Source: Massilia sp. PAMC28688
GTDB lineage: Bacteria; Pseudomonadota; Gammaproteobacteria; Burkholderiales; Burkholderiaceae_D
DNA length: 64,000 nucleotides
Reading direction: 5' to 3'
NCBI RefSeq assembly: GCF_019443445.1
Contig: NZ_CP080378.1
Span: 4,030,001 to 4,094,000 of the forward strand
This document shows, one piece after another, positions 17,295 through 46,189 of this stretch. The notes under the pieces were generated by a model that was given only the letters and a program-made list of their open reading frames with translations, ran no database searches and was not told the DNA's origin. The position numbers and the translations under genes were made by a program. Numbering within the stretch: the first letter of the stretch is position 1; each line of letters begins with the position of its first letter.

Positions 17295-17361
17295 AGCTTA
17301 GGAGCTTGTCAAGACTTTCACCAATGAATTTTTTTAAGGCTGCGATACCCGTTTTGGTATC
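17295..17361 (-). promoter_or_regulatory. Shared LysR-type operator/promoter, copy a (arabinanase gene)
   Basis: Read on the minus strand: GATACC-N6-GGTATC (17361 to 17344), 19 nt, a -35-like TTGGTG, 18 nt and a -10 TAAGCT (17300-17295). The palindrome extends to 10 bp per arm (17340-17365) with no mismatch. The spacing is identical to the four other copies. The -10 lies 43 nt before the arabinanase ATG at 17251. Confidence 0.75.
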
Positions 17362-17375
17362 GCAGGCAAACGAGT

Positions 17376-18602
17376 TCAGGGTGCCAGTTTGCCCGCCCAC
17401 AGTTTTTCAATCAGCGCCGTGGGCCAGCCCTGGCGCTCTTCCGGGCCGCTGACGCAATCGTCCTCGGCATCGGCAAGATTGAGCAGCTCGGGCGGCAGGG
17501 CACGGGCCGAGGCTGTGCAATAAAACGTGCGTACAACGGGACGTGTGTAGCTGTGCTTGTTTTGTTCCACCACCACGGCCAGGCGCGCCGATTTGAGCCG
17601 CACCAGCGAGCCGGTCGGATAGATTCCTACCACTTCGATGAACGAAGCGAGCACCTTGGGGTCAAAATGGCCTTTCCAGGAAATCATTTTGGCCAGCGCA
17701 TCGGCCGGATCCCAGCCGCGCTTGTAGGGCCGGTCGGAAGTGACGGCATCGTAGACGTCACACACGGCGCTCATGCGCGCCAGGAGGGCGATCTCCTGGC
17801 CTGACTGGCCAGCCGGATAGCCGTTTCCATCCATCCGTTCGTGGTGGTGCAGGCACGCCTGACGCACCTGCTCGCTCACGCCCCCGTGCAGCAAGGCGGC
17901 ATAGGCATGCTCGGGATGGCGCTTGACGGTGGCAAACTCCTCATCGTCGAGCGCGCCCGGCTTGTTCAGGATATCAAGGGGAATCTTGGCCTTGCCGATA
18001 TCATGCAACAGGCCGCTCAGGCCCGCTTCGCGCACATCGGCCTCGGTCAACTTCATGGCCTTGGCCAGCGCCACCATGAGGGCGCACACGGCCACTGAAT
18101 GCATGTAGGTATAGTCGTCATCGCTCTTCAGGCGCGCCAGGCTGATCAGGGCGCCTGGATGGCGCTCGACCGAGCCGACGATATCGTCCACCAGGCCGGC
18201 GCACACGTCCAGATCCACCACCTTGCCCAATCTTGCCTGGGAAAACATGGCAACGATGGCGTGGCGCGCGGTGCCGCACAACTTGGCGGCATTGCGCAGC
18301 TCATCGTCCATGCTGAGCGGCGCATGCAGGCTTTGGCGGGTTTTCTGACGATTGGTGACCAGGTGGGGCGTGCCGCGCACGGCCGGCAGCACCGGCGCCG
18401 GACCAGCCACATCGCGGCCAAGACTGACATCGATCCAGCATTCCTTGACCCCGCTCGCGCGCGCCGCGGCGAGGTCGGCCGGATTGTCGAGCAAAAAACG
18501 CGAGGTCCAGAACGGATTGGACAGCCAGGCGCCCTCGAAGCGCACCAGGAACATGCCTAGCTGAAGCTGCTTGACCCGAATTTTTTTGACGCGCTCTGCC
18601 AC
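17376..18602 (-). CDS. HD-GYP domain cyclic di-GMP phosphodiesterase-like protein
   Basis: The frame is open from 18749, but the first 49 codons are Cys-rich and unlike the family. I place the start at GTG 18602 (VAERVKKIRVKQLQLGMFL), which begins the DUF3391 N-terminal domain and gives 408 residues. The HD-GYP domain carries LLHDIGKAKIP (metal-binding HD) and HHERMDGNGYP (GYP motif), then DVYDAVTSDRPYKRGW. Such proteins hydrolyse cyclic di-GMP to GMP in the cytoplasm. It sits between the tal gene and the arabinanase gene in the same direction but has its own leader. No obvious link to arabinose is visible. Confidence 0.88.
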   Translation of the reverse strand: MAERVKKIRVKQLQLGMFLVRFEGAWLSNPFWTSRFLLDNPADLAAARASGVKECWIDVSLGRDVAGPAPVLPAVRGTPHLVTNRQKTRQSLHAPLSMDDELRNAAKLCGTARHAIVAMFSQARLGKVVDLDVCAGLVDDIVGSVERHPGALISLARLKSDDDYTYMHSVAVCALMVALAKAMKLTEADVREAGLSGLLHDIGKAKIPLDILNKPGALDDEEFATVKRHPEHAYAALLHGGVSEQVRQACLHHHERMDGNGYPAGQSGQEIALLARMSAVCDVYDAVTSDRPYKRGWDPADALAKMISWKGHFDPKVLASFIEVVGIYPTGSLVRLKSARLAVVVEQNKHSYTRPVVRTFYCTASARALPPELLNLADAEDDCVSGPEERQGWPTALIEKLWAGKLAP

Positions 18603-18776
18603 GGTGTAATGCCCACAATGTCGGGCCCTTGTTTCACGGCGCAACGTGCGCCATGAATCGGACCTTGGCGACAGCTTGACGGTTGCTGAGGTGCAAGTCA
18701 AGTCCGCAAAGCAACATTTCGTGTTATAAGTGAAACAAAACAACAGCAATGCGCACCCCGCACCCCGCGATGCACT

Positions 18777-19733
18777 TTAAGCGGCCAGGCTGGCGTTGAC
18801 GATCAGGTCCAGCTTTTCCTGGTCGATGGCAAAGTTACGAATGCCTTCAGCGAGCTTCTCGGTGGCCATGGCATCCTGGTTCAGCTGCCAACGGAAGGCG
18901 CTTTCCGTCAGCGCCGCCGGGCGCGCCTGGGCTGCCTGTTCGGCGTGCAGCTTGCGCGCCAAAGGCCCCGTCTGGGCAGCGAGCTGATCGAGCAGGGCAG
19001 GGGCGATGGTCAGGCGGTCACAGCCGGCGAGCGACTGGATTTCCCCGATGTTGCGAAAGCTCGCGCCCATGACCACGGTGGCGAAGCCGCTGCGCTTGTA
19101 AAAGTCGTAGATCTGGCTCACCGAGATCACGCCCGGGTCCTTCGCGCCGGCGAAATCGGCGTCCGGCGTTTTCGCCTTGTGCCAGTCCAGGATGCGGCCG
19201 ACGAAAGGCGAAATGAGGTACACGCCCGCTTCCGCGCAGGCCTGGGCCTGGCACATCGCAAAGAGCAGCGTCAGGTTGCACTGCACGCCTTCGCTTTCCA
19301 GCACGCGCGCGGCGGCAATGCCTTCCCAGGTCGAGGCGATCTTGATCAGAATGCGCTCGCGCGGCACGCCTGCTTCCTGGTACATGGCCACCAGTTCGCG
19401 CGCCTTGGCCAGCGTGGCATCGGTGTCGAACGACAGGCGCGCATCGACTTCGGTGGAAACGCGGCCCGGGACGTGCTTGAGGATTTCCGTGCCCAGGATG
19501 ACGGCCAGCTTGGCCGTTGCGCCTTCGAGCTGCTGTTCGGGCGGGCGGTTGGCGCGTGCCCACGCCACCGCCTGGGCCAGCAGGCCCTGGTAGCGCTCCA
19601 GGCGGATGGCCTGCAGCACCAGCGAAGGATTGGTAGTGGCATCCTGGGGCGCAAACTGGGCGATGCTGTCGACATCGCCGCTGTCGACCACCACGGTGGT
19701 CATGCTCTTGAGTTGTTCTAGTTGGTTGGACAT
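18777..19733 (-). CDS. tal: Transaldolase
   Basis: The 318-residue protein matches the long (TalB-type) transaldolase, with [12 protein letters not shown] near the N terminus, the Schiff-base Lys K131 in [11 protein letters not shown] and [18 protein letters not shown]. It moves a dihydroxyacetone unit between sugar phosphates in the non-oxidative pentose phosphate pathway. Here it is the last gene of araB-araD-araA-HAD-tal, 29 bases after the HAD gene, so it would be co-induced to carry D-xylulose-5-phosphate made from arabinose into glycolysis. Confidence 0.95.
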
Positions 19734-19762
19734 GGGCAGCTTGTAGGTACTTGGTAAAAGGG

Positions 19763-20362
19763 TTAGCGGAAGTAGTCGTTTTCCACGCCATGCACGGCCA
19801 GCACATCCACGCCCGCCATGCCGGCGCTGGCGGCAGCCTGCAGGCCGAGCGCGGAGTCTTCAAACACCACGCAGCGTGCCGGCGCGGCGCCCAGCAGTTC
19901 GGCGCAGCGCAGGAAGGTGTCGGGCGCCGGCTTGGGATGGCGCACCTGGTCGGCGCCCACCACATGGTCAAAGTAGCCATCGAGCCCGCACAGGGCCAGG
20001 ATCTGGCGCGCTTCGCCGGTGTAGGCGCCGGTGCCCACGGCCATCGGCGTGGCGCCGTGATACTGCCTGACCACGCCGGCGAGCGCCGTGGCCTTGACGT
20101 GGCGCGCCATATGCTCGCGCACGAACGCTTCCTTGAAGCTGTTCATGGCCTCAAGCGGGGTGTCCACGCGGCAGCCGAAATGGCCGATCAGGTGTTCCAG
20201 GGTGCCGATGGTGGGTACCCCGGCCAGGGAACGCATCAGCGGCGCATCGAGCGGGATGCCATAGCGTTCAAGCGTGGCGCGCCACGCCAGTTCATGCAGC
20301 TGGCCGCTGTCGACCAGCGTGCCGTCCATGTCGAAAATGAGCGCTGAATAGTGTCCGTACAT
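19763..20362 (-). CDS. HAD-superfamily sugar phosphatase (YqaB-like)
   Basis: From ATG 20362 the product is 199 residues. A much longer open frame exists upstream but runs across araA and reads as low-complexity shadow, so this start five bases after the araA stop is preferred. The motifs are [11 protein letters not shown] (nucleophile D11, acid D13), [17 protein letters not shown] and [12 protein letters not shown], the beta-phosphoglucomutase/YqaB type. It would remove phosphate from a small sugar phosphate in the cytoplasm. Inside the ara operon it may detoxify accumulating pentulose or pentitol phosphates; that role is inferred. Confidence 0.88.
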
Positions 20363-20367
20363 GCGCC

Positions 20368-21870
20368 TTATACGCCGTCCTTCAGATGATAGTAGGCGGC
20401 ATTGTGGCGCAACTCCGTCTTCAGGCCGCGCACGCTGGTGTCCGCGCCGATGACCACCGCTTCGATGCCGGCAATGTCGGCCCAGTCCAGCGCTTCCTCG
20501 GCCGTGATGCCTTGCGTGTAGGTGCTGTGATGGGCGCCGCCGGCATGGATCCACGCCGCTGCCGCCACCTGCAGGTTGGGACGCGGCTCCCACAGTGCCT
20601 TGGCCACCGGCAGCTTGGGCAGCTCCTGCTGCGGCGCCACCGTGTCCACTTCGCTGATGATCATGCGGAAGCGCTGGCCAAGGTCCACCAGCGAGATGCA
20701 CAGTGCGGGACCGGCCTTGCCGGTAAACAGCAGGCGTGCGATGTCGTTGCGGCAGCCGATGGTGTGCAGGTGCACTTCCAGTGTCGGCTTGTCGGCAGCG
20801 ATCGAGGGGCACACTTCCAGCATGTGCGCGCCCAGCACCTGGTCGGTGGCGCCAAAGTGGTAGGTGTAGTCTTCCATGAACGAGGAGCCGCCCGGACGGC
20901 CCTGCGACATCACCTTGGCGATGCGGACCATGGCCGCGGTCTTCCAGTCGCCTTCGCCGCCGTAGCCGTAGCCCTGCGCCATCAGGCGCTGGGTGGCCAG
21001 GCCCGGCAGGTTGGTCAAGCCGGTCAGGTTTTCAAAGCAGTTGGTAAAGGCGCCAAAGCCGCCTTCGGTCAGGAAGGAGAGCATGCCCAGTTCCAGGCGC
21101 GCTTCGTTCTTGAGCATCTGGAACTGGTGCTGGTCGCTGAGCACCGATGGCGCGATGTCATAGGCTTGCTTGTAGACTTCGATCTGGCTGGCCACCTGCT
21201 CGTCGGTGACCGCGTCCACCACTTTCTGCAGGTCGCCCAGGCCATAGGCGTGTACCTCGTAGCCAAACTGGATTTGCGCGGCGACCTTGTCGCCGTCGGT
21301 CACGGCCACCTGGCGCATGTTGTCGCCAAAGCGCGCCACGCGCAGGTTGCGGCTCTCGTGCCAGCCCATGGCCACGCGGCACCAGCTGTCAATTTCCAGC
21401 TGTACCGCCGGTGCGGCCCAGTGGCCCACCACCACCTTGCGCTCCTGCTTCAGGCGCGTGCTGACGTGGCCGAATTCACGGTCGCCGTGCGCGCTCTGGT
21501 TCAGGTTCATGAAGTGCATGTCGATGTCGGCAAAGGGCAGCTCGGCATTGAACTGGGTGTGCAGGTGCATATAGGGCTTGGACAGCACCGACAGGCCAGC
21601 GATCCACATCTTCGCCGGCGAAAAGGTATGCATCCACAGGATCAGGCCAACGCAGTTGGGATCACTGTTGGCAGCCTGGCACACCGACAGGATTTCGCCC
21701 GGTGACTTCACCACGTCCCTGGCCACGATCCTGATCGGGATGTTGCGCGACTCGGTCAGCGCGGCGGCGATCTGGCCGCTGTTGGCAGCGACCTGCTGCA
21801 ACACACCGGGGCCATACAGATGCTGCGATCCTGTCACCAGCCAGACTTCTTTTTCGCCGTAGGTTTTCAT
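20368..21870 (-). CDS. araA: L-arabinose isomerase
   Basis: The 500-residue enzyme starts at ATG 21870 with AAGGAA upstream; the open frame before it is a shadow of araD. It begins [20 protein letters not shown], the standard AraA N terminus, and is of usual length. [30 protein letters not shown] and [17 protein letters not shown] carry the family's substrate and Mn2+-binding region. It converts L-arabinose to L-ribulose, the first step of the phosphorylative route. It is the third gene of the ara operon, 35 bases after araD. Confidence 0.97.
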
Positions 21871-21905
21871 GTTGGGTTCCTTGAAGATAGTTATAAGTGA
21901 TATTG

Positions 21906-22598
21906 TTATTTCTGGCCGTAGTAGGCGTTCTTGCCGTGCTTGCGCAGGTAGTGCTTGTCCGTGATGGCCTGCTTGAGCGGGCCGGTATCGGCCCTCAGGG
22001 TGCGCGTGAGATAAGCCATGCGCGCAATCTCTTCCAGGATCACGGCGTGGGACACGGCATCGTGCGCATTGCGTCCCCACGTGAAAGGTGCGTGGCCGGC
22101 AACGATCACCATCGGCGCCTCCATCGGATTGCGCCCGCGGTAGCACTCGGTGATCTGCACGCCGGTTTCTTCTTCATAGTCGCGCGCGATCTGCTCGTCG
22201 GTCATCAGGGCGGTGCACGGAATGTCCCCATAGGCGTAGTCGGCGTGGGTGGTGCCGAAGCAGGGAATGGCCTGCTGCGTCTGCGCCCACGCAGTGGCGT
22301 AGGTGGAATGGGTGTGCGTGACGCCGCCAATGGTATCGAAATGGCGGTACAGGTGCGTGTGGGTCTTGGTGTCGGAAGAAGGGCGCAGGCGGCTGTCGAC
22401 CACGCGGTTTTCCAGGTCTACCAGGACCATGTCTTCGGCGCGCAGCTGGTCGTAGGCGACCCCGCTTGGCTTGATGGCGATGATGCCGGCGGCGCGGTCG
22501 ATCTGCGACACATTGCCCCAGGTGAGTACCACCAGTTTGCGCAGGTGCAGTTCCATATTGGCTTCGTACACCTGGCGCTTGAGTTCAAGGTGGCTCAT
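21906..22598 (-). CDS. araD: L-ribulose-5-phosphate 4-epimerase
   Basis: The start at ATG 22598 overlaps the araB stop by four bases (ATGA), giving 230 residues, the usual length. [34 protein letters not shown] and [15 protein letters not shown] provide the phosphate-binding and Zn2+-His residues of the class II aldolase/epimerase fold. It makes D-xylulose-5-phosphate, the entry to the pentose phosphate pathway. Translational coupling with araB is likely. Confidence 0.96.
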
Positions 22599-24262
22599 CG
22601 CACGCCGCCTTCCACGTATGCGCCCAGGGCCAGGTACTGGCGATACAGGGCGTCGTACCGGGCCGCAGCCGCAGGGTCGGGACGGTAGGTCTTGCACACC
22701 GGGGAAGCCAGGGCCTGCTGGGCGCTGGCCACGTCCGCGTAGACGCCGCCGACGGTGGCGGCAAAGATGGCAGCGCCCAGGGCGCAGCTTTGTTCGCTCT
22801 CGAGCACATCGACCTGGCAGTTCCAGACGTCGGCGCACAGCTGCACGATGAAATCGGACTTTTTCGAAATGCCGCCGATGACGACGACCGAATCGACCGC
22901 CACCCCTTCGGCCCGGAAGCGCTCGATGATGGCGCGCGCGCCAAAGGCGGTCGCTTCCACCAGGGCGCGGAAGACCTCCGGCGCGCCGCTGCCCATGGTC
23001 AGGCCGCTGATGGCCATCGACAGGCGCTGGTCGGCGTCCGGCGTGCGGCGGCCGTTGACCCAGTCCAGCGCGGTGATGCCCCCGGCGCCGGGCGCCAGCT
23101 TGCTGGCCGCCTCGCCCAGTGCGGCCAGGGTGCGCTCTTCAATTTCGGCCTGCAAGGCGGCCTTGCTTGCCTCGTCCAGCAGCGCGCTTGACGCAATCAG
23201 GTTGGCCAGCGGCCAGTTGACGAGGGACTTGAACCAGGCATACAGGTCGCCAAAGGCCGACTGTCCTGCCTCCAGGCCGACCATGCCCGGCACCACCGAG
23301 CCGTCCACCTGGCCGCAGATGCCGCGGATCGCCTTGTCGTTGATGTCGCTGTAGCTGGCCACCGTGATGTCGCAGGTGGAGGTCCCCATGATCTTGGTAA
23401 GCACGCCCGGCTTCACGTTGGCCGCCACGGCGCCCATGTGGCAGTCGAAGGCGCCAAAGCCGACCGGCGTGCCTTCGGGCAGGCCGAGGCGCTCGGCCCA
23501 CTCGCGCGTGATGCGCCCGCACAGCTGGTCGGCCGAGAAGGTTTGCGCCGGCAGGCGGTCGCGCAGGCCGTCAAGGAGGGGATCGATGGCGGTGAAGAAT
23601 TCATTGGGCGGATAGCCGCCCCAGCTCTCGTGCCACATCAGTTTGTGGCCGGTGGCGCAGCGGCCCATGCGCAGGCGCGAGGGGTGGGTGGTGCCGGTGA
23701 TGACGGCGCTGATCCAGTCGCAATGCTCGACCCAGGTGTGCGCGGCGGCGGCAACGGCTGCGTCTTCACGCAGCACGTGCAGCACCTTGGCCCAGTACCA
23801 TTCGGATGAATAAATCCCGCCCATGTAGCGCAGGTAGGGCGTGTACGAGGCGCTGGCGGCAGCGGTGATCTGCTCCGCTTCCACGATGGCAGTGTGATCC
23901 TTCCACAGCACGAACATGGCGTTGGGATTGTCCGCAAACTCGCTCTTGAGCGACAGCGCCACGCCGTCGGCGTCAAGGGCGATGGGGGTGGAACCGGTGG
24001 TGTCGAAGCTCACGCCAATGACTTCGCTGGCCGCCCCCGCGGGTGCGCGCTGCCACAGGCCGGCCAGCACCTGTTCCAAACTCTCCAGGTAGTCAAGCGG
24101 ATGCTGGCGGAAGCGGTTGCTGGCAGGGTGGCAGTAGAGGCCCTGCTTCCAGCGGGGGAATTCAATCACATGGCTGGCCACTTCGGTGCCGGCGTGGGCA
24201 TCAACCAGCAGGGCGCGAACGGAATCGGATCCATAGTCCAGACCGAGGGCATAGGACGTCAT
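22595..24262 (-). CDS. araB: Ribulokinase
   Basis: This 555-residue FGGY-family kinase begins GLDYGSDSVRALLVDAHAG, typical of AraB, and has FGAFDCHMGAVAANV, IMGTSTCDI and VVIGGISKKSDFIVQLCADV (ATP site) in order. It phosphorylates L-ribulose to L-ribulose-5-phosphate. It is the first gene of araB-araD-araA-HAD-tal, transcribed from the operator-bearing promoter at 24304-24370. The leader is about 35 nt. Confidence 0.96.
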   Translation of the reverse strand: MTSYALGLDYGSDSVRALLVDAHAGTEVASHVIEFPRWKQGLYCHPASNRFRQHPLDYLESLEQVLAGLWQRAPAGAASEVIGVSFDTTGSTPIALDADGVALSLKSEFADNPNAMFVLWKDHTAIVEAEQITAAASASYTPYLRYMGGIYSSEWYWAKVLHVLREDAAVAAAAHTWVEHCDWISAVITGTTHPSRLRMGRCATGHKLMWHESWGGYPPNEFFTAIDPLLDGLRDRLPAQTFSADQLCGRITREWAERLGLPEGTPVGFGAFDCHMGAVAANVKPGVLTKIMGTSTCDITVASYSDINDKAIRGICGQVDGSVVPGMVGLEAGQSAFGDLYAWFKSLVNWPLANLIASSALLDEASKAALQAEIEERTLAALGEAASKLAPGAGGITALDWVNGRRTPDADQRLSMAISGLTMGSGAPEVFRALVEATAFGARAIIERFRAEGVAVDSVVVIGGISKKSDFIVQLCADVWNCQVDVLESEQSCALGAAIFAATVGGVYADVASAQQALASPVCKTYRPDPAAAARYDALYRQYLALGAYVEGGVR

Positions 24263-24303
24263 AACTCTACCTTCTCTTTACACGTTATAGGAATTGCAAA
24301 ATC

Positions 24304-24370
24304 AGTGTAAAGCGATTGATGATCCCCATCTAATCAAAAAATTTCTCTTATCGATACGTTTTTGGATATC
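24304..24370 (-). promoter_or_regulatory. Shared LysR-type operator/promoter, copy b (ara operon)
   Basis: Read on the minus strand: GATATC-N6-CGTATC (24370 to 24353), 19 nt, a -35-like TTAGAT, 18 nt and a -10 TACACT (24309-24304). The same spacings occur in the four other copies. The site lies in the araB/dehydrogenase divergent gap. Read towards the plus-strand gene at 24470, it has no -35/-10 at these distances, so it appears to serve the ara operon. Confidence 0.8.
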
Positions 24371-25422: not shown

Positions 25423-25489
25423 GATATCTTTTTCGATATCAAAAACCGGAAAAAATTGATTGGATTGTATTTTTACATGCCCCTAACAT
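25423..25489 (+). promoter_or_regulatory. Shared LysR-type operator/promoter, copy c (TonB receptor operon)
   Basis: GATATC-N6-GATATC (25423-25440), 19 nt, -35-like TTGGAT (25460-25465), 18 nt and -10 TAACAT (25484-25489). Both half-sites are perfect. The -10 lies 66 nt before the receptor ATG at 25556. The intergenic 25241-25555 is AT-rich and holds no gene. Confidence 0.8.
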
Positions 25490-29619: not shown

Positions 29620-29644
29620 TCCTGAATACGACATCGACTTCACC

Positions 29645-30589: not shown

Positions 30590-30596
30590 GGCGCCA

Positions 30597-32381: not shown

Positions 32382-32448
32382 CATATCGATTTTGCTATCG
32401 GTAGCACGCAAAAAGTGATTTGAAAGATATCTGTTAGCCACTTACTAT
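32382..32448 (+). promoter_or_regulatory. Shared LysR-type operator/promoter, copy d (oxidative operon)
   Basis: CATATC-N6-GCTATC (32382-32399), 19 nt, -35-like TTTGAA (32419-32424), 18 nt and -10 TACTAT (32443-32448). This copy has the weakest half-sites but identical spacings. A further GATATC lies at 32426-32431, inside the -35/-10 spacer. The dehydratase ATG is at 32505. Confidence 0.7.
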
Positions 32449-32504
32449 CCCTCACAGACTGACGCGCCATAAGGCGTGCATTCATAAGAATAATGGGAGA
32501 TGAG

Positions 32505-34244: not shown

Positions 34245-34269
34245 GAACAATCAAATAGAAGGAGCGCAC

Positions 34270-36830: not shown

Positions 36831-36880
36831 GCAAGCCGGCAGCAAGCATATAAGAACAATCAGCGGTACCAGGAGACAGC

Positions 36881-37648
36881 ATGAACAAATCGGCAAGCTA
36901 CGCCTCCCTTCGGGGACGGCGGGTTTTTGTCACGGGCGGTGGCAGCGGGATTGGCGAATCCATCGTCACCGCCTTTGCAGAGCAGGGTGCGCACGTCGCC
37001 TTTGTCGACATCCAGCGCGACGCCAGCCTGGCCCTGTGCGAGCGCATCGCGGCAGCCGGCCACCCGGCCCCGCTGTTTCGTTATTGCGACATCACCGATG
37101 TCGCCGGTCTGCAGGCCACGATGGAGGAACTCAGCACCCGCATGGGCGACTTTGATGTCCTCGTCAACAACGCTGCCAACGATCACCGCCACGACCTGGA
37201 AAACGTTTCGCAAAGCGAGTGGGACCGCTGCATCGCCGTCAATCAGCGCCCCATGTTCTTTACCAGCCAGGCCGTGGTTCCGGGCATGAAGCGCAATGGC
37301 GGCGGTTCCATCATCAACCTCAGCTCCGTGTCGTGGCGCGTCAAGGGCGGGGGCTATCCCGTGTACGTGACCACCAAGGCGGCCGTGGTGGGACTGACGC
37401 GCGCACTGGCCCGCGACCTTGGCCAGCACAGGATTCGCGTCAATACGGTCACGCCAGGATGGGTGATGACGCAGCGCCAGGTGGACCTGTGGGTGAGCGA
37501 CGAGGACAGGCAGGAGATGGCGCGCGTGCACTGCCTGCCGGGTGATCTGCTGCCGCACCACATCGCATCCATGGTGCTGTTCCTTGGCGCCGATGACAGC
37601 GCGATGTGCACGGGCCATGACTTCGTGGTGGACGCCGGCTGGACCTGA
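36881..37648 (+). CDS. Short-chain dehydrogenase/reductase, probable L-arabinose 1-dehydrogenase
   Basis: The 255-residue classical SDR has TGGGSGIG, NNAAND, catalytic YVTTK with Ser in SSVSW, and PGWVMTQRQVDLW. AGGAGA precedes ATG 36881. It lies in the operon that encodes arabonate breakdown, so oxidation of L-arabinose (or another aldose with that configuration) at C1 is the likely role. It is a paralogue of the dehydrogenase at 24470. No lactonase gene is visible in the window; the lactone may open spontaneously or by an enzyme encoded elsewhere. Confidence 0.87.
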   Translation: MNKSASYASLRGRRVFVTGGGSGIGESIVTAFAEQGAHVAFVDIQRDASLALCERIAAAGHPAPLFRYCDITDVAGLQATMEELSTRMGDFDVLVNNAANDHRHDLENVSQSEWDRCIAVNQRPMFFTSQAVVPGMKRNGGGSIINLSSVSWRVKGGGYPVYVTTKAAVVGLTRALARDLGQHRIRVNTVTPGWVMTQRQVDLWVSDEDRQEMARVHCLPGDLLPHHIASMVLFLGADDSAMCTGHDFVVDAGWT

Positions 37649-37690: not shown

Positions 37691-39598
37691 ATGGACATTC
37701 TTCAGAAAACGCTGTTTGCCACCCTTGCCCTGCTTGGTGCCAATGCGCAGGCGCTGGACAGCCCGGACAAGCGCATCAGCGTCAAGGTTGGCCAAACCGA
37801 TCGCAAGCAGCTGACCTACACGGTCTTGCGCGACGCGCGGCCAGTTGTTCTGCCATCAAGCCTGGGCCTGCAGCTGGCCGACGCTGACCTGGCTTTCGGC
37901 CTCACGCTTGGCACGCCGTCCATGGTCAGGGCGGTAACGGACCGGTACGAGATTGCGGTTGGCAAGAAGCGCCACGTCACTTACCGCGCCAACGAGCAGG
38001 TTTTCCCGATCCGCAATGCACAGGGCCAGAAGATGGACCTGGTGTTCCGCGTATCCAACGATGGCGTGGCCTTTCGCTATGTGGTCAAGGGCGCCGGGCG
38101 CAAGCAGTTTGTGAGCGAAGCGACCAGTTTCGCCTTCAGTGCGGATGCCAGGGCATGGCTGCAGCCCATGCAGGTGGCGCAGACCGGCTGGATGAACACC
38201 AATCCGGCCTACGAAGAGCACTACCAGCGCGAGATCCCCGTCGGCACGCCATCGCCCTCGAAGGCAGGCTGGGTGTTCCCGGCGCTGTTTCGCACGGGCG
38301 ACACCTGGGTGGCGCTGACGGAAGCGAACATGGACGGCAGCTTCCACGCCTCGCGCCTGCAGGCCGGGTCCCCTGATGCCACCTATCGCATCGGCCTGCC
38401 CATGGCCGAGGAAAAGACCACCGGTGGGGAGCTTTTGGCCAGCACCACCGGTGACATGGTCACGCCGTGGCGCGTCATTGCACTAGGTTCGCTGGCCACC
38501 GTCATGGACTCCACACTGGGTACCGACCTGGCCGCACCGGCCATCGCATTTGAAGCATCGAAAGTCAAGCCCGGGCATGCCTCCTGGAGCTGGGCCCTGC
38601 TCAAGGATGACGCCACCGTCTACGATGTGCAGAAGAAGTTCATCGACTACACGGCCGACATGAAGTGGGATTACGCGCTGGTCGATGCCGACTGGGACCG
38701 CAAGATCGGCTACGAAAAAATGCGCGAGCTGGCCAAGTACGGCGAAGGCAAGGGCGTGGGCATTCTGGTCTGGTACAACTCCTCCGGGGAGTGGAACAAG
38801 ACCGACTATTCGCCCAAGGGCGCGCTGCTCACCGCGGCCCAGCGCAAAAGGGAATTTGCGCGCATGAAGGAGATGGGCATCAAGGGCCTGAAGATCGATT
38901 TCTTCCCCGGCGACGGCGTCTCGGCCATCAAGTATTACGTTGATCTGCTCAGGGACGCGGCAAAAGCTGGCCTGCTGGTCAACTTCCATGGCGCGACCCT
39001 GCCACGGGGCTGGGCCCGCACCTATCCCAATTTCATGACCGCTGAAGCGGTCAAGGGCCTGGAATTTACCACCTTCACCCAGGCCGACCAGGATGCCGTG
39101 GTGCGCCATGCAGCCATGCTGCCATTTACCCGCAATTTGTTCGACCCCATGGACTTCACCCCCATGGTGTTTGGGGATATTCCGACCATCAAGCGCGCAA
39201 CGCGCAATGGCTTCGAGCTGGCCCAGTCGGTCCTGTTCCTGTCCGGTATCCAGCACTTTGCCGAGACCCCGGACGGCATGGCAACCGCGCCGTCCTTCGT
39301 CAAGCGCTTCCTGCAGGAGCTGCCCGGCAGCTGGGACGACAGCAGGTTCGTTGCCGGTTACCCGGGCACGCACGTGGTCATTGCGCGCCGGGCGGGCGAC
39401 ACGTGGTACGTGGCTGGCCTGAACGCGGACGACAGCGAGCGCACCGTGGCGCTGGACCTGTCGTTTCTGGGCCGGCGCAAGGGCACCTTGATTACCGACG
39501 GCGCCAGCGAGCGCGCCTTTATCACATCCAGTATCACAGCCGGAAGTACCAGCATCACCATCAAGCCACAGGGCGGGTTCGTGGCCGTATTCAGATAA
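37691..39598 (+). CDS. GH97 retaining glycosidase (alpha-galactosidase / beta-L-arabinopyranosidase type)
   Basis: The 635-residue protein has a signal peptide (about 1-21), an N-terminal beta-domain (about 25-290), a TIM barrel and a short C-terminal beta-domain. KGLKIDFFPGDG places an Asp (D403) where retaining GH97 enzymes have their nucleophile, and NFHGATLPRG lacks the Glu found at that place in inverting SusB-type enzymes. ARTYPNFMTAEAVKGLEF is the GH97 signature. Retaining members act on alpha-galactosides, and one Bacteroides enzyme also on beta-L-arabinopyranosides, which have the same ring shape. Given the neighbours, the arabinopyranoside activity is attractive. Confidence 0.88.
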   Translation: MDILQKTLFATLALLGANAQALDSPDKRISVKVGQTDRKQLTYTVLRDARPVVLPSSLGLQLADADLAFGLTLGTPSMVRAVTDRYEIAVGKKRHVTYRANEQVFPIRNAQGQKMDLVFRVSNDGVAFRYVVKGAGRKQFVSEATSFAFSADARAWLQPMQVAQTGWMNTNPAYEEHYQREIPVGTPSPSKAGWVFPALFRTGDTWVALTEANMDGSFHASRLQAGSPDATYRIGLPMAEEKTTGGELLASTTGDMVTPWRVIALGSLATVMDSTLGTDLAAPAIAFEASKVKPGHASWSWALLKDDATVYDVQKKFIDYTADMKWDYALVDADWDRKIGYEKMRELAKYGEGKGVGILVWYNSSGEWNKTDYSPKGALLTAAQRKREFARMKEMGIKGLKIDFFPGDGVSAIKYYVDLLRDAAKAGLLVNFHGATLPRGWARTYPNFMTAEAVKGLEFTTFTQADQDAVVRHAAMLPFTRNLFDPMDFTPMVFGDIPTIKRATRNGFELAQSVLFLSGIQHFAETPDGMATAPSFVKRFLQELPGSWDDSRFVAGYPGTHVVIARRAGDTWYVAGLNADDSERTVALDLSFLGRRKGTLITDGASERAFITSSITAGSTSITIKPQGGFVAVFR

Positions 39599-39617
39599 GA
39601 TTCAACAGGAGACCAGC

Positions 39618-41168
39618 ATGAACATCATCAAGCAAAGCATTGCCATCATCGGCTTCGTCGCTGCCAGCGCAGTACCGGCATTTGCCGCCGTTACCGTCAC
39701 CATCGACGCCAACAATCCCGGACCGGTCATCAACAAGAACGTGTATGGCCAGTTTGCCGAGCACCTGGGCACCGGCATTTACGGCGGCATGTGGGTGGGC
39801 CCCAATTCCAAGATCCCCAACACCAAGGGCTGGCGCAACGACGTCGTTGGCGCGCTGAAGAAGCTGCAGGTGCCGCTGGTGCGCTGGCCAGGCGGCTGCT
39901 TCGCTGACGAATACCACTGGAAGGACGGCATCGGCCCGCGCGCCAAGCGCCCGGTCAAGGTCAATACCAACTGGGGCGGCGTGGAAGAAGACAACGCCGT
40001 CGGCACCCACGAATTCTTTGACCTGATCGACCTGCTGGGCGCCGACGCCTATGTCAACGGCAACCTGGGCTCGGGCAGCGTGCAGGAAATGTCGGAGTGG
40101 CTCGAATACCTGACCTCGGACAGCAAATCGACCCTGGCCAACCTGCGCCGCAAGAACGGCCGCAATGAGCCATTCAAGGTTGCATACTTCGCCATCGGTA
40201 ACGAAGCCTGGGGCTGCGGCGGCAACATGACGCCTGCCTACTACACGGACCTGTACAAGAACTACTACAACCTGATGAAGGCACCGGCCGAGAGGCGTCC
40301 AAAGTTCATCGCCAGCGGTGGCAATGACTACGACACCACCTGGACCGATACCCTCAGCCGCGAACTGAAGGGCCGCACCGACGCCATCAGCTTCCACTAC
40401 TACACGGTGCCAACCGGCGTATGGGAGAAGAAGGGCGCTGCGACCGGCTTTGCCGAAGACCAGTGGATTTCGACCCTGGCCAACACGCTCAAGCTCGATG
40501 GCATGATCAAGAATAACGTGGCCAAGCTGGACAAGAACGATCCGGAGAAGAAGATCGGCCTGTTCGTCGATGAATGGGGCACCTGGTACGACGTGGAGCC
40601 GGGCACCAACGCGGGCTTCCTGTTCCAGCAAAACACGCTGCGCGACGCGCTGGTGGCGGCCTTGAACTTCAACGTCTTCCATGAGCATGCAGAGCGCGTG
40701 CAGATGACGAACATCGCGCAGATGGTCAATGTGCTGCAGGCGATGATCATCACCGACAAGGACAAGATGCTGCTCACGCCAACCTACCACGCGTATTCGA
40801 TGTATGTGCCGTTCCAGGGTGCGACCACCTTGCCGGTCAAGCTCGAGAACAATACGCCCTATACCCTGGGCCAGGTAAGCGTGCCGGGCATCAGCGCTTC
40901 GGCAGCGCGCGCCAAGGATGGCAAGACCTATCTGTCGCTGGTCAATACCAACCCCGGCAAACCGACCGACGTGGTGATCAACATGGCTGGCAAGAAGATC
41001 GCGGGCGTCACGGGCCGCTTGCTCACCGCCGAGAAGATGGATGCCCATAACACCTTCGCCAACAAGGAAGCCGTGAAGCCTGTGCCAATGACGGCCCGCG
41101 CCAACGGCGGCCAGATGACGGTAACCGTGCCGGCCAAGTCGGTCATCGTGGTGGCAGTGGACGCTTGA
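39618..41168 (+). CDS. Secreted GH51 alpha-L-arabinofuranosidase
   Basis: The 516-residue protein has a signal peptide (1-23) and a GH51 TIM barrel, with acid/base E196 in FAIGNEAWG and nucleophile E319 in FVDEWGTW; PLVRWPGGCFADEYHW is the GH51 substrate segment. It removes alpha-L-arabinofuranosyl side groups from arabinan or arabinoxylan, probably in the periplasm. AGGAG precedes ATG 39618. It sits between GH97 and GH43 genes, with a two-base gap to the next one. Confidence 0.93.
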   Translation: MNIIKQSIAIIGFVAASAVPAFAAVTVTIDANNPGPVINKNVYGQFAEHLGTGIYGGMWVGPNSKIPNTKGWRNDVVGALKKLQVPLVRWPGGCFADEYHWKDGIGPRAKRPVKVNTNWGGVEEDNAVGTHEFFDLIDLLGADAYVNGNLGSGSVQEMSEWLEYLTSDSKSTLANLRRKNGRNEPFKVAYFAIGNEAWGCGGNMTPAYYTDLYKNYYNLMKAPAERRPKFIASGGNDYDTTWTDTLSRELKGRTDAISFHYYTVPTGVWEKKGAATGFAEDQWISTLANTLKLDGMIKNNVAKLDKNDPEKKIGLFVDEWGTWYDVEPGTNAGFLFQQNTLRDALVAALNFNVFHEHAERVQMTNIAQMVNVLQAMIITDKDKMLLTPTYHAYSMYVPFQGATTLPVKLENNTPYTLGQVSVPGISASAARAKDGKTYLSLVNTNPGKPTDVVINMAGKKIAGVTGRLLTAEKMDAHNTFANKEAVKPVPMTARANGGQMTVTVPAKSVIVVAVDA

Positions 41169-41170
41169 CC

Positions 41171-42685
41171 ATGACGAAGATGCTCCTGGGCGCAAGCGCC
41201 CTGGCAGCTGCGATGGCCCTTTCCGCCTGTGGCGGAGGGGGCGGATCGTCCGCACCTGCCCCGACACCAGCACCCACGCCGACGCCGACGCCAACGCCGA
41301 CGCCAACGCCAACGCCAACGCCAGCGCCCGTGGTCACCTTCGCCAACGTCAGCGTGCATGATCCCTCGCTGGTCAAGGTTGGCAGCGACTTTTACGTGTT
41401 CGGTTCCCACGGCGCCGCTGCCAAGACCACGGACTTCATGAACTGGCTGAAGGTGGCAGATGGTGTCAACGCCGCCAATCCCCTGTTTAACAACGTCACG
41501 ACCGAGCTAGCCGAGGCGTTTGCCTGGTCCCAGGTGACCGGGCTGTGGGCGGCGGACGTGATCCAGCTTGCCGACGGCAAGTTCTACTTCTACTACAACA
41601 CCTGCAAGGGCGACTCGCCCCGCTCCGCCATGGGCGTGGCAGTGGCCGACAAGATCGAAGGCCCGTACGTCAACAAGGGCATCTTCCTCAAGTCCGGCAT
41701 GTGGGGGCAGGTGAGCGAAGACGGCGTGAATATCTATGACGCCCAGAAGCATCCGAACGCGGCCGATCCTGACGTCTTCTTCGACAAGGACGGCAAGCTG
41801 TGGATGGTGTACGGTTCCTACTCGGGCGGCATCTTCATCCTGGCCATGGACCCGGCCACGGGCAAGCCACTGCCGGGGCAGGGCTACGGCAAGCATCTGA
41901 TGGGGGGCAATCACAGCCGCATCGAAGGCGCGTATGTGCTGTACCACCCGGCCCAGGACTACTATTACATGTTCACGTCCTTTGGCGGCCTGGATGCCAC
42001 GGGCGCGTACAACATGCGCGTGGCACGCTCACGCACTCCGGACGGTCCCTACCTCGATGCGGCTGGCAAGGACATGGCGCAGGTCAAATCCAACCCGGCC
42101 TTGCCCCTGTTTGACGACGCCAGCATTGCACCGCATGGCCAGAAGATCATGGGTAACTTCCAGTTCACCGGAACGACGCTGGGCTATGTATCGCCGGGCC
42201 ATAACTCGGCATATTACGATGCCGCGACCGGGCAGAGCTTCCTGGTGTTCCACACCCGCTTTCCCAACACCGGGGAAGCGCACGAGGTGCGCACGCACGA
42301 GATGTTCATCAACGGCGCCGGCTGGCCCGTGGTCTCGCCGCTGCGCTATGCGCCGCTGGCGAAGAGCCCGGCCCTGGTGAGCACCGTTACCAGCAAGGAG
42401 GCCGAAGGCAGTTACCAGCTGGTCAACCATGGCAAGGATATCTCGGCATCTGTCAAGATGTCGCAGGCCGCCAGGCTCAATGCCGATGGCACCGTCTCGG
42501 GCGCTGTCAGCGGTACCTGGGTCCATGACGGGGCCAACAAGATGAGCATCACCCTCGCTGGCGGCGGCGCCTATTCCGGCGTGTTGTCGCGCCAGTGGAA
42601 TTCACATGCCAACAGCTTCGTGGTAACTTTCACGGCGCAGTCGAACGAGGGCGTGTCCATCTGGGGCATTCGCTCGGGCGAGTAA
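41171..42685 (+). CDS. GH43 arabinanase lipoprotein with C-terminal beta-barrel domain
   Basis: Starting at ATG 41171 (two bases after the GH51 stop), the 504-residue product has a lipobox LSAC with C20, a Gly/Ser stretch and a (Pro-Thr)n linker (about 30-52). Next come a GH43 propeller (SVHDPSLV, DPDVFFDKDG, SRIEGAYVLY) and a C-terminal beta-domain (about 400-504: GSYQLVNHGKDIS, ADGTVSGAVSGTW). The last resembles the second domain of Bacillus Abn2-type endo-arabinanases. It would act on arabinan while anchored to a membrane. A TTG six bases upstream is an alternative start. Confidence 0.88.
   Translation: MTKMLLGASALAAAMALSACGGGGGSSAPAPTPAPTPTPTPTPTPTPTPTPAPVVTFANVSVHDPSLVKVGSDFYVFGSHGAAAKTTDFMNWLKVADGVNAANPLFNNVTTELAEAFAWSQVTGLWAADVIQLADGKFYFYYNTCKGDSPRSAMGVAVADKIEGPYVNKGIFLKSGMWGQVSEDGVNIYDAQKHPNAADPDVFFDKDGKLWMVYGSYSGGIFILAMDPATGKPLPGQGYGKHLMGGNHSRIEGAYVLYHPAQDYYYMFTSFGGLDATGAYNMRVARSRTPDGPYLDAAGKDMAQVKSNPALPLFDDASIAPHGQKIMGNFQFTGTTLGYVSPGHNSAYYDAATGQSFLVFHTRFPNTGEAHEVRTHEMFINGAGWPVVSPLRYAPLAKSPALVSTVTSKEAEGSYQLVNHGKDISASVKMSQAARLNADGTVSGAVSGTWVHDGANKMSITLAGGGAYSGVLSRQWNSHANSFVVTFTAQSNEGVSIWGIRSGE
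41276..41329 (+). repeat. Six-base tandem repeat encoding the Pro-Thr linker
   Basis: About eight imperfect copies of ACGCC(G/A) with period 6 code for the Pro-Thr linker between the lipid anchor and the GH43 domain. Whole-unit gain or loss keeps frame, so linker length could vary between strains. Confidence 0.85.
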
Positions 42686-42692
42686 GCGTGAC

Positions 42693-42724
42693 GGCATCCC
42701 TGCGAAGGGATGCCGGCTTTTTTT
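42693..42724 (+). terminator. Rho-independent terminator inside the glycosidase gene series
   Basis: GGCATCCCT (42693-42701) pairs perfectly with AGGGATGCC (42706-42714) around GCGA, followed by GGC and seven T. It lies just after the GH43 stop and 14 bases before the next gene's start. It should reduce or stop read-through to the downstream GH43 and GH127 genes unless they have their own promoter. Confidence 0.88.
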
Positions 42725-42738
42725 CAGAACAAGGAATC

Positions 42739-43779
42739 ATGAACATGACAACACTGCTGCGCACCGCCGTTATCCTGCCGCTGTTTGCGGTGCTGGGCGC
42801 CTGCCAGGCTGTCCAGGTGGACGTGCATGACCCGGTCATGGCGAAGCAGGGCAATACCTACTACTTGTACAGCACCGGACCGGGCATCACGTTTTACAGC
42901 TCCACCGACATGAAGAACTGGACGCCGGAAGGCCCGGTCTTTGCCAACGCGCCGGCCTGGGCGCGCAAGGCTGCGCCAAGCTTCAATGGCCACGTGTGGG
43001 CCCCGGACATTTATCAGCACAAGGACAAGTACTACCTGTACTACTCGGTGTCCGGCTTTGGCAAGAACACGTCAGGAATTGGCGTGGCCACCAATACCAC
43101 GCTCGATCCGCGCGCGCCTGGCTACCGCTGGCAGGACCAGGGCATGATCCTGCAATCGGTTCCCAACCGCGACGAGTGGAACGCCATCGATTCGCACGTC
43201 ATCGACGATGCGGACGGCACGCCGTGGATGTCCTTCGGCTCCTTCTGGAGTGGCCTGAAGCTGGTCAAGCTCGATGCCAGCCGCACGCGGCTGGCTGAAC
43301 CCCAGGAGTGGCACGCCATTGCCAGCCGCGCGCCCTCCGACCGCAAGGCCGATCCCGCCTCGCAGGCCGGCGTGCATGAAATCGAAGCGCCGTTCATCTT
43401 CAAGAAGAACGAGTACTACTACCTGTTTGCATCGTGGGGCCTGTGCTGCAAGGGCAAGGACAGCACCTATCACGTGGTGGTGGGACGGGCTAAAAACGTG
43501 ACCGGCCCTTACCTGGACAAGGACGGCAGGAGCATGCAGGCGGGCGGCGGCTCGCTCGTCATCGCCGGTGACAAGGACTGGAAGGGCCTGGGGCACAACA
43601 GTGCCTACACCTTTGACGGCAAGGATTACCTGGTCCTGCACGCCTATGAAACGGCTGACAAGTATCTGCAAAAACTCAAGGTGCTGCCTATGGCCTGGGA
43701 CAAGGACGGCTGGCCCGTGGTCGACCAGAAGGACCTGAATCGCTATCAAAGCACGCGCCTGGCGAAGCCATCCAAATGA
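42739..43779 (+). CDS. GH43 endo-arabinanase-like lipoprotein
   Basis: From ATG 42739 (AAGGAA upstream) the product is 346 residues with lipobox LGAC (C22). The GH43 residues are D31 in VHDPVMA, Asp in WNAIDSHVI and Glu in HEIEAPFIF. HVWAPDIYQ and GLCCKGKDSTYHVVVGRA match the endo-arabinanase subfamily that also includes the gene at 15887. It would cut arabinan in the cell envelope. Its stop overlaps the GH127 start by four bases, so those two are co-translated. Confidence 0.9.
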   Translation: MNMTTLLRTAVILPLFAVLGACQAVQVDVHDPVMAKQGNTYYLYSTGPGITFYSSTDMKNWTPEGPVFANAPAWARKAAPSFNGHVWAPDIYQHKDKYYLYYSVSGFGKNTSGIGVATNTTLDPRAPGYRWQDQGMILQSVPNRDEWNAIDSHVIDDADGTPWMSFGSFWSGLKLVKLDASRTRLAEPQEWHAIASRAPSDRKADPASQAGVHEIEAPFIFKKNEYYYLFASWGLCCKGKDSTYHVVVGRAKNVTGPYLDKDGRSMQAGGGSLVIAGDKDWKGLGHNSAYTFDGKDYLVLHAYETADKYLQKLKVLPMAWDKDGWPVVDQKDLNRYQSTRLAKPSK

Positions 43780-46124
43780 TTCTGCGCCTGCTCACTGCCG
43801 TAGTTCTTTTCGCTGCGGCCGGTGCGCCGCACGCCGCGCCCGCCCAGCTGTTCCCCCTCAGTGATGTGCGGCTGACGGCAGGACCCTTCCTCGACGCGCA
43901 GAATACCGGCCAAGCCTATCTGCTGACGCTGGACCCGGACAGGCTACTGGCGCCTTTCCGGCGCGAGGCAGGCCTGCCGCTGCCCAAGCCGAGCTACGGC
44001 AACTGGGAGTCGTCCGGCCTGGACGGTCACATGGGCGGCCACTACCTGTCGGCGCTGGCGCTGATGTATGCGTCCACGGGCGATGCGGAAATGCTGGCAC
44101 GGCTGAACAAGTTCATCGCCGGCCTGCGCGAAGTGCAGCAAAAGAATGGCGATGGCTACATCGGTGGCATCCCTGGCGGCGCCACCCTGTGGCAGGCGAT
44201 CGCCCGCGGCGAAATGCAGGCCGATAACTTCTCGGTCAATGGCAAGTGGGTCCCGTGGTACAACCTGCACAAGATGTTCGCCGGCCTGCGCGACGCCCAT
44301 CAGCACGCGGGCAGCAAGGATGCGCGCGCCATGCTCATTGCCTTGTCCGACTGGACGCTGGCGCTGACGGCAAGACTCACGCAGGAGCAGATGCAGGCGA
44401 TGCTGCGCAGCGAGCATGGCGGCATGAACGAAGTGCTGGCCGATGTGGCACGCCTGACCGGTGACGATAAGTACATGGCCCTGGCGCGGCGCTTCTCGCA
44501 CCAGGCCATCCTGGACCCGCTCGCACGCGGGGAAGATCAGCTCAACGGGCTGCACGCCAACACGCAGATTCCCAAGGTGATCGGCTTCAAGCGCATTGCA
44601 GACCTGACCGGCGAGCGCCGGATGCAGGATGCGGCGCGCTTTTTCTGGCAGACCGTGCACGACAAGCGCACCGTTGCCATCGGCGGCAACAGCGTCAAGG
44701 AGCACTTCCACGATACGAAGGACTTTTCGTCCATGATCGGCGAAGTGGAGGGGCCGGAGACCTGCAATACGTACAACATGCTCAAGCTGTCCGGCATGCT
44801 GTTCCTCACCGACCCCAGGGTCGCCTATACTGATTACATCGAGCGCGGCCTGTACAACCACATCCTGGCGTCGCAGCGGCCAAAGCGGGGCGGCTTTGCG
44901 TACTTTACGCCCATGCGCCCGAATCACTATCGCGTGTACTCACAGCCCGAGCATGCCATGTGGTGCTGTGTGGGATCGGGCATCGAGAGCCACGCCCGCC
45001 ATGGCGAATTCATTTACGCCCACGATGGCAATTCCCTGTATGTGAACCTGTTCATCGCCTCCACGCTCACCTGGCGCGACAGGAACGTGCGTCTGACCCA
45101 GGCCACCCGCTTTCCCGACCAGGCCAGTTCCCGCATCACGGTGCATGATGACGCCGCGTTTGCACTCAAGATCCGCTATCCGCGCTGGGTGGCCGCCGGT
45201 GCGCTCAAGCTGCGTGTCAATGGCAAGCCCTATCGCTACAAGGGCGGTCCGGGCGACTACATCACGCTCGATCGCCAGTGGCGCCCGGGCGACCGCATCG
45301 ATGTCAGCCTGCCGATGACCACGCGCCTGGAGCAGATGCCCGATGGCTCGAACTATTACGCGGTGCTGCACGGCCCTATCGTACTGGCGGCAAAGACGGC
45401 GCCGTTTGCCAACGAAAAGCTCAGTTTTCTGGCCGACGATTCGCGCATGGGGCACATCGCCTCCGGTCCGGTCTGCGAACTGTCGGCTGCGCCCATGCTG
45501 GTGAGCGACACCAAGGATTTCATGCACAGGTTCCGGCCCGTGCGCGGCGAGCCGCTGACGTTTTCGGCGCCCGGCCTCATTCGCGGCAAGGATGCCGGCT
45601 CACTGCGCCTGATTCCCTTCTTCCGCCTGCATGAGTCGCGCTACACCATCTACTGGCCGTATTCCACGCCGGCCGATGCCGAGCTGCTGCAGGCGGCCAC
45701 CGCCATGGCCGAAGCGGAGCGGCTGGAGCTGGACGCACGCACCGTCGACCAGGTGGCGCCCGGCCAGCAGCAGCCGGAATCGGACCATGGCTTCAAGGGC
45801 GAGGGCGCCGAAGCGGGCGTCAACGGCGCGCGCCACTGGCGCCACGCGACCGGCTGGTTCAGCTACGAGCTCAATGACCCGAAAGGCGAAGCCAGCATAC
45901 TGCGCCTGACCTTTGCCAGGGGCGACGCCGGGCGCCGCTTTGACATCGTTGTCGACGGCGTCAAGATCGCCGGCGTGACCCTGGGCGCGCCCGAGGGCGA
46001 GGACTTCTACACGGTCGACTATCCTGTCGCGCCGGCCAGGCCGGGCAGCAAAATGACCGTCAGGTTCGTCGCCCAGCCGGGCTCCATCGCGGGCGGGCTG
46101 TATGGGCTGCGGCTGCTGCGTTGA
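43776..46124 (+). CDS. GH127/GH146-type beta-L-arabinofuranosidase
   Basis: The 782-residue protein has a signal peptide (about 1-21), an alpha/alpha barrel and C-terminal beta-domains. The unusual zinc-thiolate active site is complete: E328 and C330 in GPETCNTYNML, and C397/C398 in AMWCCVGSG. By analogy with Bifidobacterium HypBA1, the second Cys of that pair is the nucleophile. SSGLDGHMGGHYLSAL and DQLNGLHANTQIPKVIG are the family signature (former DUF1680). It hydrolyses beta-L-arabinofuranosides such as those on hydroxyproline-rich plant proteins or in complex pectin side chains. GH127 versus GH146 cannot be settled by eye. Confidence 0.9.
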   Translation: MILRLLTAVVLFAAAGAPHAAPAQLFPLSDVRLTAGPFLDAQNTGQAYLLTLDPDRLLAPFRREAGLPLPKPSYGNWESSGLDGHMGGHYLSALALMYASTGDAEMLARLNKFIAGLREVQQKNGDGYIGGIPGGATLWQAIARGEMQADNFSVNGKWVPWYNLHKMFAGLRDAHQHAGSKDARAMLIALSDWTLALTARLTQEQMQAMLRSEHGGMNEVLADVARLTGDDKYMALARRFSHQAILDPLARGEDQLNGLHANTQIPKVIGFKRIADLTGERRMQDAARFFWQTVHDKRTVAIGGNSVKEHFHDTKDFSSMIGEVEGPETCNTYNMLKLSGMLFLTDPRVAYTDYIERGLYNHILASQRPKRGGFAYFTPMRPNHYRVYSQPEHAMWCCVGSGIESHARHGEFIYAHDGNSLYVNLFIASTLTWRDRNVRLTQATRFPDQASSRITVHDDAAFALKIRYPRWVAAGALKLRVNGKPYRYKGGPGDYITLDRQWRPGDRIDVSLPMTTRLEQMPDGSNYYAVLHGPIVLAAKTAPFANEKLSFLADDSRMGHIASGPVCELSAAPMLVSDTKDFMHRFRPVRGEPLTFSAPGLIRGKDAGSLRLIPFFRLHESRYTIYWPYSTPADAELLQAATAMAEAERLELDARTVDQVAPGQQQPESDHGFKGEGAEAGVNGARHWRHATGWFSYELNDPKGEASILRLTFARGDAGRRFDIVVDGVKIAGVTLGAPEGEDFYTVDYPVAPARPGSKMTVRFVAQPGSIAGGLYGLRLLR

Positions 46125-46189
46125 TATCACTATTGATATCGATCACTGCAAAAAAATGATTGGATGGTTATTGCATTTTCTCCTACTAT
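46123..46189 (+). promoter_or_regulatory. Shared LysR-type operator/promoter, copy e (ABC importer operon)
   Basis: GATATC-N6-GATATC (46123-46140), 19 nt, -35-like TTGGAT (46160-46165), 18 nt and -10 TACTAT (46184-46189). Both half-sites are perfect. The first half-site overlaps the GH127 stop codon (46122-46124), so the operon boundary is fixed by the operator itself. The importer ATG is at 46245. Confidence 0.82.

Follow-up and report, generated by a model that had tools for sequence, protein, structure and literature searches.

The window considered here is a stretch of 64,000 nucleotides (nt) from Massilia sp. PAMC28688 (contig NZ_CP080378.1, positions 4,030,001 to 4,094,000), in which genes of both the isomerase and the oxidative route of L-arabinose use lie together with genes for sugar uptake and glycosidases. 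Five promoters of this window share one operator-promoter layout of 67 nt, and, judged from sequence and comparative evidence, they are very probably the promoters of a single arabinose regulon run through a two-site layout by the LysR-type regulator encoded at 51852..52793 (+), a candidate AraR. Positions are those of the window, unless a genome or a locus is named.

Site 1 (17295..17361, -) precedes a gene for an arabinanase-like protein of glycoside hydrolase family 43 (GH43); site 2 (24304..24370, -) precedes araB of the araBDA-HAD-tal operon; site 3 (25423..25489, +) precedes a run of genes with a TonB-dependent receptor; site 4 (32382..32448, +) precedes the run for the oxidative (arabonate) route; and site 5 (46123..46189, +), whose palindrome overlaps the stop codon of a GH127 gene, precedes the importer run. 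The coordinates and strands given by the first-pass annotation were confirmed, together with the sequence of elements that it described: a palindrome of 18 nt of the type GATATC-N6-GATATC, 19 nt, a TTGGAT-like hexamer, 18 nt and a TAnnnT box (in site 1, for example, the palindrome occupies 17344-17361 and the -10 box 17295-17300). The palindromes of sites 3 (25423) and 5 (46123) are perfect, and those of sites 1, 2 and 4 have two mismatches each. Scored with a matrix built from relatives only, the window sites range from 50.8 to 69.1 (52.1, 50.8, 66.3, 58.3 and 69.1 for sites 1 to 5), and the reversed matrix gives no match of at least 12 in the window or in the three stretches that hold the further targets described below.

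The window holds five such palindromes, while shuffled sequence contains 0.49 on average and at most three, none of 100 shuffles reaching five. Moreover, when the matrix is made from any four of the sites, the fifth ranks directly behind those four among the 127,868 window positions. Outside the motif columns, the pairwise identity between sites amounts to 6 to 11 of 29 positions, which is near background; therefore the sites are not recent copies of one another, and they look as if they had been kept one by one rather than freshly copied. At the scale of the 5.46-Mb genome the bare palindrome is frequent (with two mismatches allowed it occurs 244 times, and its reversed control 16 times), whereas the whole layout, allowed up to three mismatches, is found at nine places only, five in the window and four outside, with none for the reversed control; therefore only the whole layout is specific. 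The first-pass annotation had named a frequent occurrence of the motif as a finding that would speak against its reading: such frequency is a property of the bare palindrome and not of the whole layout.

The anatomy of the layout becomes clearer in relatives. A consensus of 108 distinct sites (effective number 27) begins with GATAYC-N6-GRTATC; further on, columns 28-33 form an A-tract, columns 35-42 read TGATTGGA, columns 45-50 resemble a GATATC half-site and columns 62-67 read TAnnAT. These sites had been picked with the matrix of the window sites, and hence a separate count was made on the columns that the search pattern left free, using 24 of 29 loci (22 distinct), after five loci (L049, L056, L059, L063 and L066) had been dropped as chance-like two-mismatch matches. 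In this count A is present in 16 to 24 of the 24 loci at columns 28-33, and columns 45-49 show G in 18, A in 15, T in 17, A in 13 and T in 17 loci, column 50 being mixed (G11, C7, T6). The spacing is equally rigid. When the gap was allowed to vary, in a set made up of the window and 100 loci that partly share genomes, the end of the palindrome was separated by 16 nt from TSATTNG in 79 of 82 occurrences; within those 79, a TANN[AC]T box follows the position of TTGGAT at 18 nt in 74 of 81 matches. The earlier identification of TTGGAT as the -35 element is incomplete: in relatives the hexamer is preceded by a conserved AAAAAA, embedded in TGATTGGA and followed by a looser GATATC-like half-site. 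For sites 1 to 5 of the window, this third half-site shares 1, 4, 2, 6 and 4 of its 6 bases with GATATC, that of site 4 being perfect.

From established knowledge of the family, the palindrome is read as the putative LysR recognition site, TGATTGG plus GATATC as the putative activation site over the -35 element, and a putative bend between the two sites is ascribed to the A-tract; when the TAnnnT box is taken as the -10 element, the distances would fit a recognition site near -65 and an activation site near -35. A T-N11-A core is common in the LysR family and is not universal; the palindrome discussed here has an even length and its T3-A16 pair gives T-N12-A, so that the symmetrical T-N11-A core is absent. 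Alternatively, the five copies might be due to chance, or to a promoter cassette that was duplicated recently and is under no shared regulator, and the abundance of the bare palindrome in the genome speaks for this view. It is nevertheless hardly credible in view of the leave-one-out recovery, the near-background identity outside the motif columns, the rigid spacing found in relatives with a free gap, the presence of the layout in front of orthologous genes there and the zero matches of at least 18 obtained in relatives with the reversed matrix.

The protein encoded at 51852 carries the domains PF00126 (HTH_1, 3.6e-20) and PF03466 (LysR_substrate, 3.2e-30), both over the gathering score. Among 148 relatives, 29 match it at 1e-75 or better, and 28 were retained as bearers of an orthologue, since the match of G103 is of the paralogue type (41-44%). 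The layout, with up to two mismatches, is present in 28 of these 28 genomes and in 8 of the 120 without the orthologue (Fisher p 2e-23, kinship uncorrected); the reversed pattern occurs in 4 of the 148 genomes, with one match each. Two of the eight have the locus: in G001 the contig seems to break off inside the importer run, and G006 has a broken piece 95% like LysR. The remaining six show single two-mismatch matches that are chance-like. Furthermore, G007 and G105 have the LysR without a close dehydratase and still possess the sites, and 20 genomes have a dehydratase homologue but no detected LysR, a layout match being found in only three of them (G001, G006 and G063).

A second line of evidence comes from the surroundings of lysR genes, for which the best 80 of 154 LysR loci were considered. 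A site with a score of at least 18 is present in 73 of the 80, and the reversed matrix gives none. When 20 further stretches, overlapping with these loci in genomes, are added to make 100 loci, the first gene after sites of at least 15 is ytfQ in 70 cases, a dehydratase in 12 and ytfR in 8, with none assigned in 22. In more distant relatives lysR has the site on its upstream side, oriented away from the gene (L096 and L098 to L101, and, by coordinates, L102 and L103); L096 and L098 have a second site after lysR, and in L097 the sole site adjoining lysR comes after the gene. The same upstream arrangement, pointing away from lysR, recurs at six beta-proteobacterial plasmid loci, from a Comamonadaceae member, Paraburkholderia caribensis, Paraburkholderia D15, Burkholderia arboris, Caballeronia grimmiae and Diaphorobacter. 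Of the 48 plasmid records that have a LysR relative (37 to 60% identity), 16 were examined, and 11 of these 16 loci hold a site of at least 18. In Azospirillum, three of four records (L217, L221 and L222), whose LysR is about 40-42% identical to that of the window, have the layout at three promoters each, before a lactonase run, ytfQ and chvE, with scores of 19.6 to 28.4, while reversed and random controls score below 0. Thus, a lysR gene and a regulated promoter lie side by side in the outgroups, and in the window lysR ends the run behind site 5. The 51852 gene had been proposed at first reading as the natural candidate for a common regulator of the five promoters; the co-occurrence and the sites beside lysR genes in outgroups, mostly divergent, support both this regulator and the one-regulon reading, and on comparative grounds the assignment appears well supported.

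Several observations weigh against this assignment. No site of at least 18 was found in 7 of the 80 LysR loci (L140, L158, L162, L164, L184, L191 and L195); some of these are on short contigs, and L162, L184 and L191 are without a site on stretches of at least 13 kb. Five of the 16 plasmid loci (Caballeronia SBC2, Halomonas, Azospirillum thermophilum, Niveispirillum and Cupriavidus) likewise hold no site of at least 18, and two of the window sites, 1 and 3, match the third half-site poorly. The co-occurrence was counted among related genomes, uncorrected for kinship, and in the source genome lysR is not divergent from any site. Moreover, this genome has 36 first-look LysR candidates, and the regulated genes co-occur with the motif as well, so that another LysR or an unlinked factor might bind the sites, the 51852 LysR being then merely a member of the regulon. 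This alternative is considered unlikely, because in several families, and also in Azospirillum, lysR orthologues have the layout upstream and directed away from them, and because the layout accompanies the LysR also in genomes without a close dehydratase (G007 and G105).

Loci of LysR paralogues (41 to 44% identity; L039 to L048, L090 and L091) were also inspected. A match of at least 12 is present in 8 of the 12, and none at this threshold was found at L046, L047, L048 and L090. From L039 to L045 the match lies on the same strand just after the paralogue gene or over its last bases (about 2435-2516, with lysR on the + strand), and in L091 it lies about 400 nt after the gene; these matches have the same spacing, and by eye their palindrome is of the GTATAC type. 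They were dropped as support for the link to the regulator, since they follow the paralogue gene, and are retained as a lead only.

With the 51852 LysR as regulator, what we infer about binding, bending, activation and the order of events is the following. A tetramer of the protein would bind the upstream palindrome GATAYC-N6-GRTATC, centred near -65, as its recognition site, and the bending-prone A-tract would let it reach the activation site (TGATTGGA...GATATC) over the -35 element of a weak sigma-70 promoter, activation presumably taking place when L-arabinose or an early product is present. The sign of control is not readable from position alone, and the downstream element overlaps the -35 element, where a bound protein could block the polymerase; the same LysR might therefore bind the sites mainly as a repressor, with arabinose lifting the repression. 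This is quite improbable: by what is established for the family, activation is what a poor -35 element with a TAnnAT -10 box, and a recognition site close to -65, would fit.

Activation by the 51852 LysR probably extends to its own gene. Along the run ytfQ, ytfR, ytfT, yjfF-like, GH43-like and lysR, the gaps are 6, -4, -4, 28 and 55 nt (from coordinates of open reading frames, ORFs), and a consensus scan of the gap before lysR, of a kind that performs at chance level here, gave neither a promoter nor a terminator. Site 5 thus probably drives lysR too; since lysR is the last gene of this run, induction through site 5 should raise the level of the regulator itself. In Janthinobacterium and Undibacterium loci (L118 to L127, L130, L141 and L161) a weaker reverse match (9926-9992, -, score 19 to 30) ends 8 nt before the start of lysR and is possibly a separate autoregulatory site. 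The regulon reading of the first-pass annotation is retained, and what it had missed are likely further targets, the A-tract, the third half-site, the likely autoregulation and the odd position of the isomerase operon.

The genes behind the sites are consistent with arabinose and arabinan use. Site 1 is followed by a GH43 protein similar to arabinan endo-1,5-alpha-L-arabinosidase with a lectin-like C-terminus (15887..17251, -; AbnA model 208 bits, below the equivalog cut-off of 480). Behind site 2, all on the - strand, are araB (ribulokinase, 22595..24262, above the model cut-off), an araD-type class II aldolase/epimerase gene (21906..22838), araA (L-arabinose isomerase, 20368..22146), a HAD hydrolase gene (19763..20812) and a transaldolase gene (18777..19733), the ORF starts of araD, araA and the HAD gene being overextended. 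A gene for an HD-domain protein with DUF3391 (HD-GYP-like, 17376-18749, -) begins 27 nt past the transaldolase gene on the same strand; it could be read together with araBDA-HAD-tal, which would tie cyclic di-GMP turnover to arabinose. Between sites 2 and 3 lies an SDR dehydrogenase gene (24470-25240, +) that diverges from araB. The close relative G011 (L110) has no space for such a gene, since its two sites are separated by a mere 280 nt or so.

On the + strand, site 3 precedes the TonB-dependent receptor (25556..28186, TonB-Xanth-Caul type, above the model cut-off) and a GPH-type sugar symporter, a GH43 enzyme and an aldose 1-epimerase (28267..31667). Behind site 4 are an arabonate dehydratase-like protein, a GguC/AraD1-family protein, an aldehyde dehydrogenase and an SDR dehydrogenase (32493..37648), assigned to the oxidative arabinose route; the L-arabinonate dehydratase model gives 824 bits with a cut-off of 882, and the GguC model is above its cut-off. 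They are followed by GH97, an arabinofuranosidase with an Alpha-L-AF_C domain, two GH43 enzymes and GH127 (beta-L-arabinofuranosidase) (37691..46124). Site 5 precedes a furanose-type ABC importer similar to YtfQ/YtfR/YtfT/YjfF (46245..50772), these being the best models, with YjfF above and YtfQ, YtfR and YtfT below the cut-off; the start of ytfQ was re-set to the in-frame ATG at 46245. Between importer and lysR lies a GH43-like arabinosidase gene (50801..51796, +) with weak matches to arabinosidase models.

Outside the window, the layout is found before four genes that are likely further targets: a GH39 gene (genome 2886851, no mismatch, score 38.2 with the relatives-only matrix), a GH43 gene (5114939, one mismatch, 31.2), a GH43 gene with a lectin-like domain (671589, three mismatches, 27.2) and a rhamnogalacturonan lyase gene (5110525, or 5526-5592 of L019, three mismatches, 26.9). 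Judged from their families, these genes would fit the breakdown of pectin side chains. The place at genome 3395268, the fourth outside place of the nine found with the whole layout, was rejected as chance-like, with three mismatches and no A-tract. A separate layout search gave 13 genome places, of which 1900485, 2048771, 2858166 and 5059656 look like chance and among which 671589 is absent. A pectate lyase gene is preceded by a three-mismatch match (5112304, +) that has the A-tract and GTGAT but scores below 12 with the relatives' matrix, and this place is only a lead. Divergent from the rhamnogalacturonan lyase gene, with the site in its start region, is an SMP-30/gluconolactonase gene (L019 4523-5749, -; genome 5109522-5110748), whose ORF start is overextended across the lyase site, the SMP-30 domain starting further in. 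No gene for the lactonase step of the oxidative route was found among the window proteins scanned, and it is a guess that this SMP-30/gluconolactonase could provide it; on a Comamonadaceae plasmid a lactonase 36% identical to it is encoded one gene away from lysR.

The isomerase operon has a peculiar position in this regulon. A gene for araA is present in 2 of 148 relatives and in 3 of 392 genomes of the family, and the site before araB is found in the source genome and in its close relative G011; therefore, as far as this distribution tells, the operon appears to be a late arrival that was put under the resident operator. The third araA-bearing genome has no site of at least 12 in its 16.8-kb araBDA stretch (L215), and its operon was accordingly ruled out as a target of the regulon. 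Among the 120 araA matches listed, the best with an organism name are from Gilvimarinus and Marinimicrobium (about 70-72%), some other matches being higher, and a gamma-proteobacterial origin of araA is a guess based on this similarity. The ancestral role of the regulator would have been control of the oxidative arabinose route and of sugar importers, and in the source lineage the regulon would have widened to the TonB-dependent receptor, several glycosidases and the araBDA-HAD-tal operon, otherwise rare in the family.

Taken at its widest, and with a confidence only slightly above even, the proposal is that one promoter code and one LysR clade govern arabinose use in alpha- and beta-proteobacteria, and that here the isomerase operon evolved or acquired the operator, so that both routes, uptake and pectin side-chain breakdown came onto one self-amplifying switch. 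The code may also have spread by gene transfer instead of common descent. For the use of arabinan and pectin side chains in Oxalobacteraceae, this yields a regulator that can be tested, a list of targets and an operator-promoter design of high precision. It also offers a clean case of how a newly gained operon comes under an old regulator and raises the question of why one cell keeps the isomerase and the oxidative route on a single switch, while the rigid layout makes a good system for the geometry of LysR activation.

As regards known systems, enteric AraC controls araBAD in response to L-arabinose; it belongs to another protein family than the window LysR and uses another site design, and no AraC-type protein was found among the window proteins scanned, which cover part of the ORFs. 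The best-scoring NCBIfam model for the window LysR is PcaQ (TIGR02424), a name that refers to aromatic catabolism, and membership was rejected at 179.9 bits for a cut-off of 303.8. Among the literature matches listed, whose coverage leaves out most subscription papers, no arabinose LysR regulator for Oxalobacteraceae was found, and the accessible portions of PMC10204090 and PMC10107873 contain nothing closer to the window regulator.

Closer likenesses are offered by two LysR-type regulators. In Halomonas, AraR was predicted by comparative genomics to control arabinose transport, genes of the oxidative route and itself, according to the accessible part of that study (PMC5507952), and the window LysR would likewise be a LysR factor over arabinose transport, oxidative-route genes and itself. 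The targets named in that part do not include araBDA, a TonB-dependent receptor or glycosidases, unlike those of the window regulon (PMC5507952). In a single Halomonas plasmid record, a LysR is 42% identical to the window LysR over 310 residues and its neighbours are similar by BLAST to window proteins (aldose epimerase, ABC genes and dehydratases), whereas the intergenic region scores only 1.7 with the relatives' matrix, unlike the window sites. Agrobacterium GbpR is described, in the available part of the source, as a LysR protein that, when sugars are present, regulates chvE, a gene for a sugar-binding protein (PMC4086400); in the three Azospirillum records chvE and arabinose-type genes, preceded by the layout, lie next to the gene of the window LysR's relative, Agrobacterium GbpR itself being likened by description only. 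The window regulator belongs to the same broad kind as Halomonas AraR and Agrobacterium GbpR. What seems new is that its regulon spans both routes together with glycosidases and uptake through the outer membrane, that the promoter design is exact and extends across families, and that the isomerase operon has been captured.

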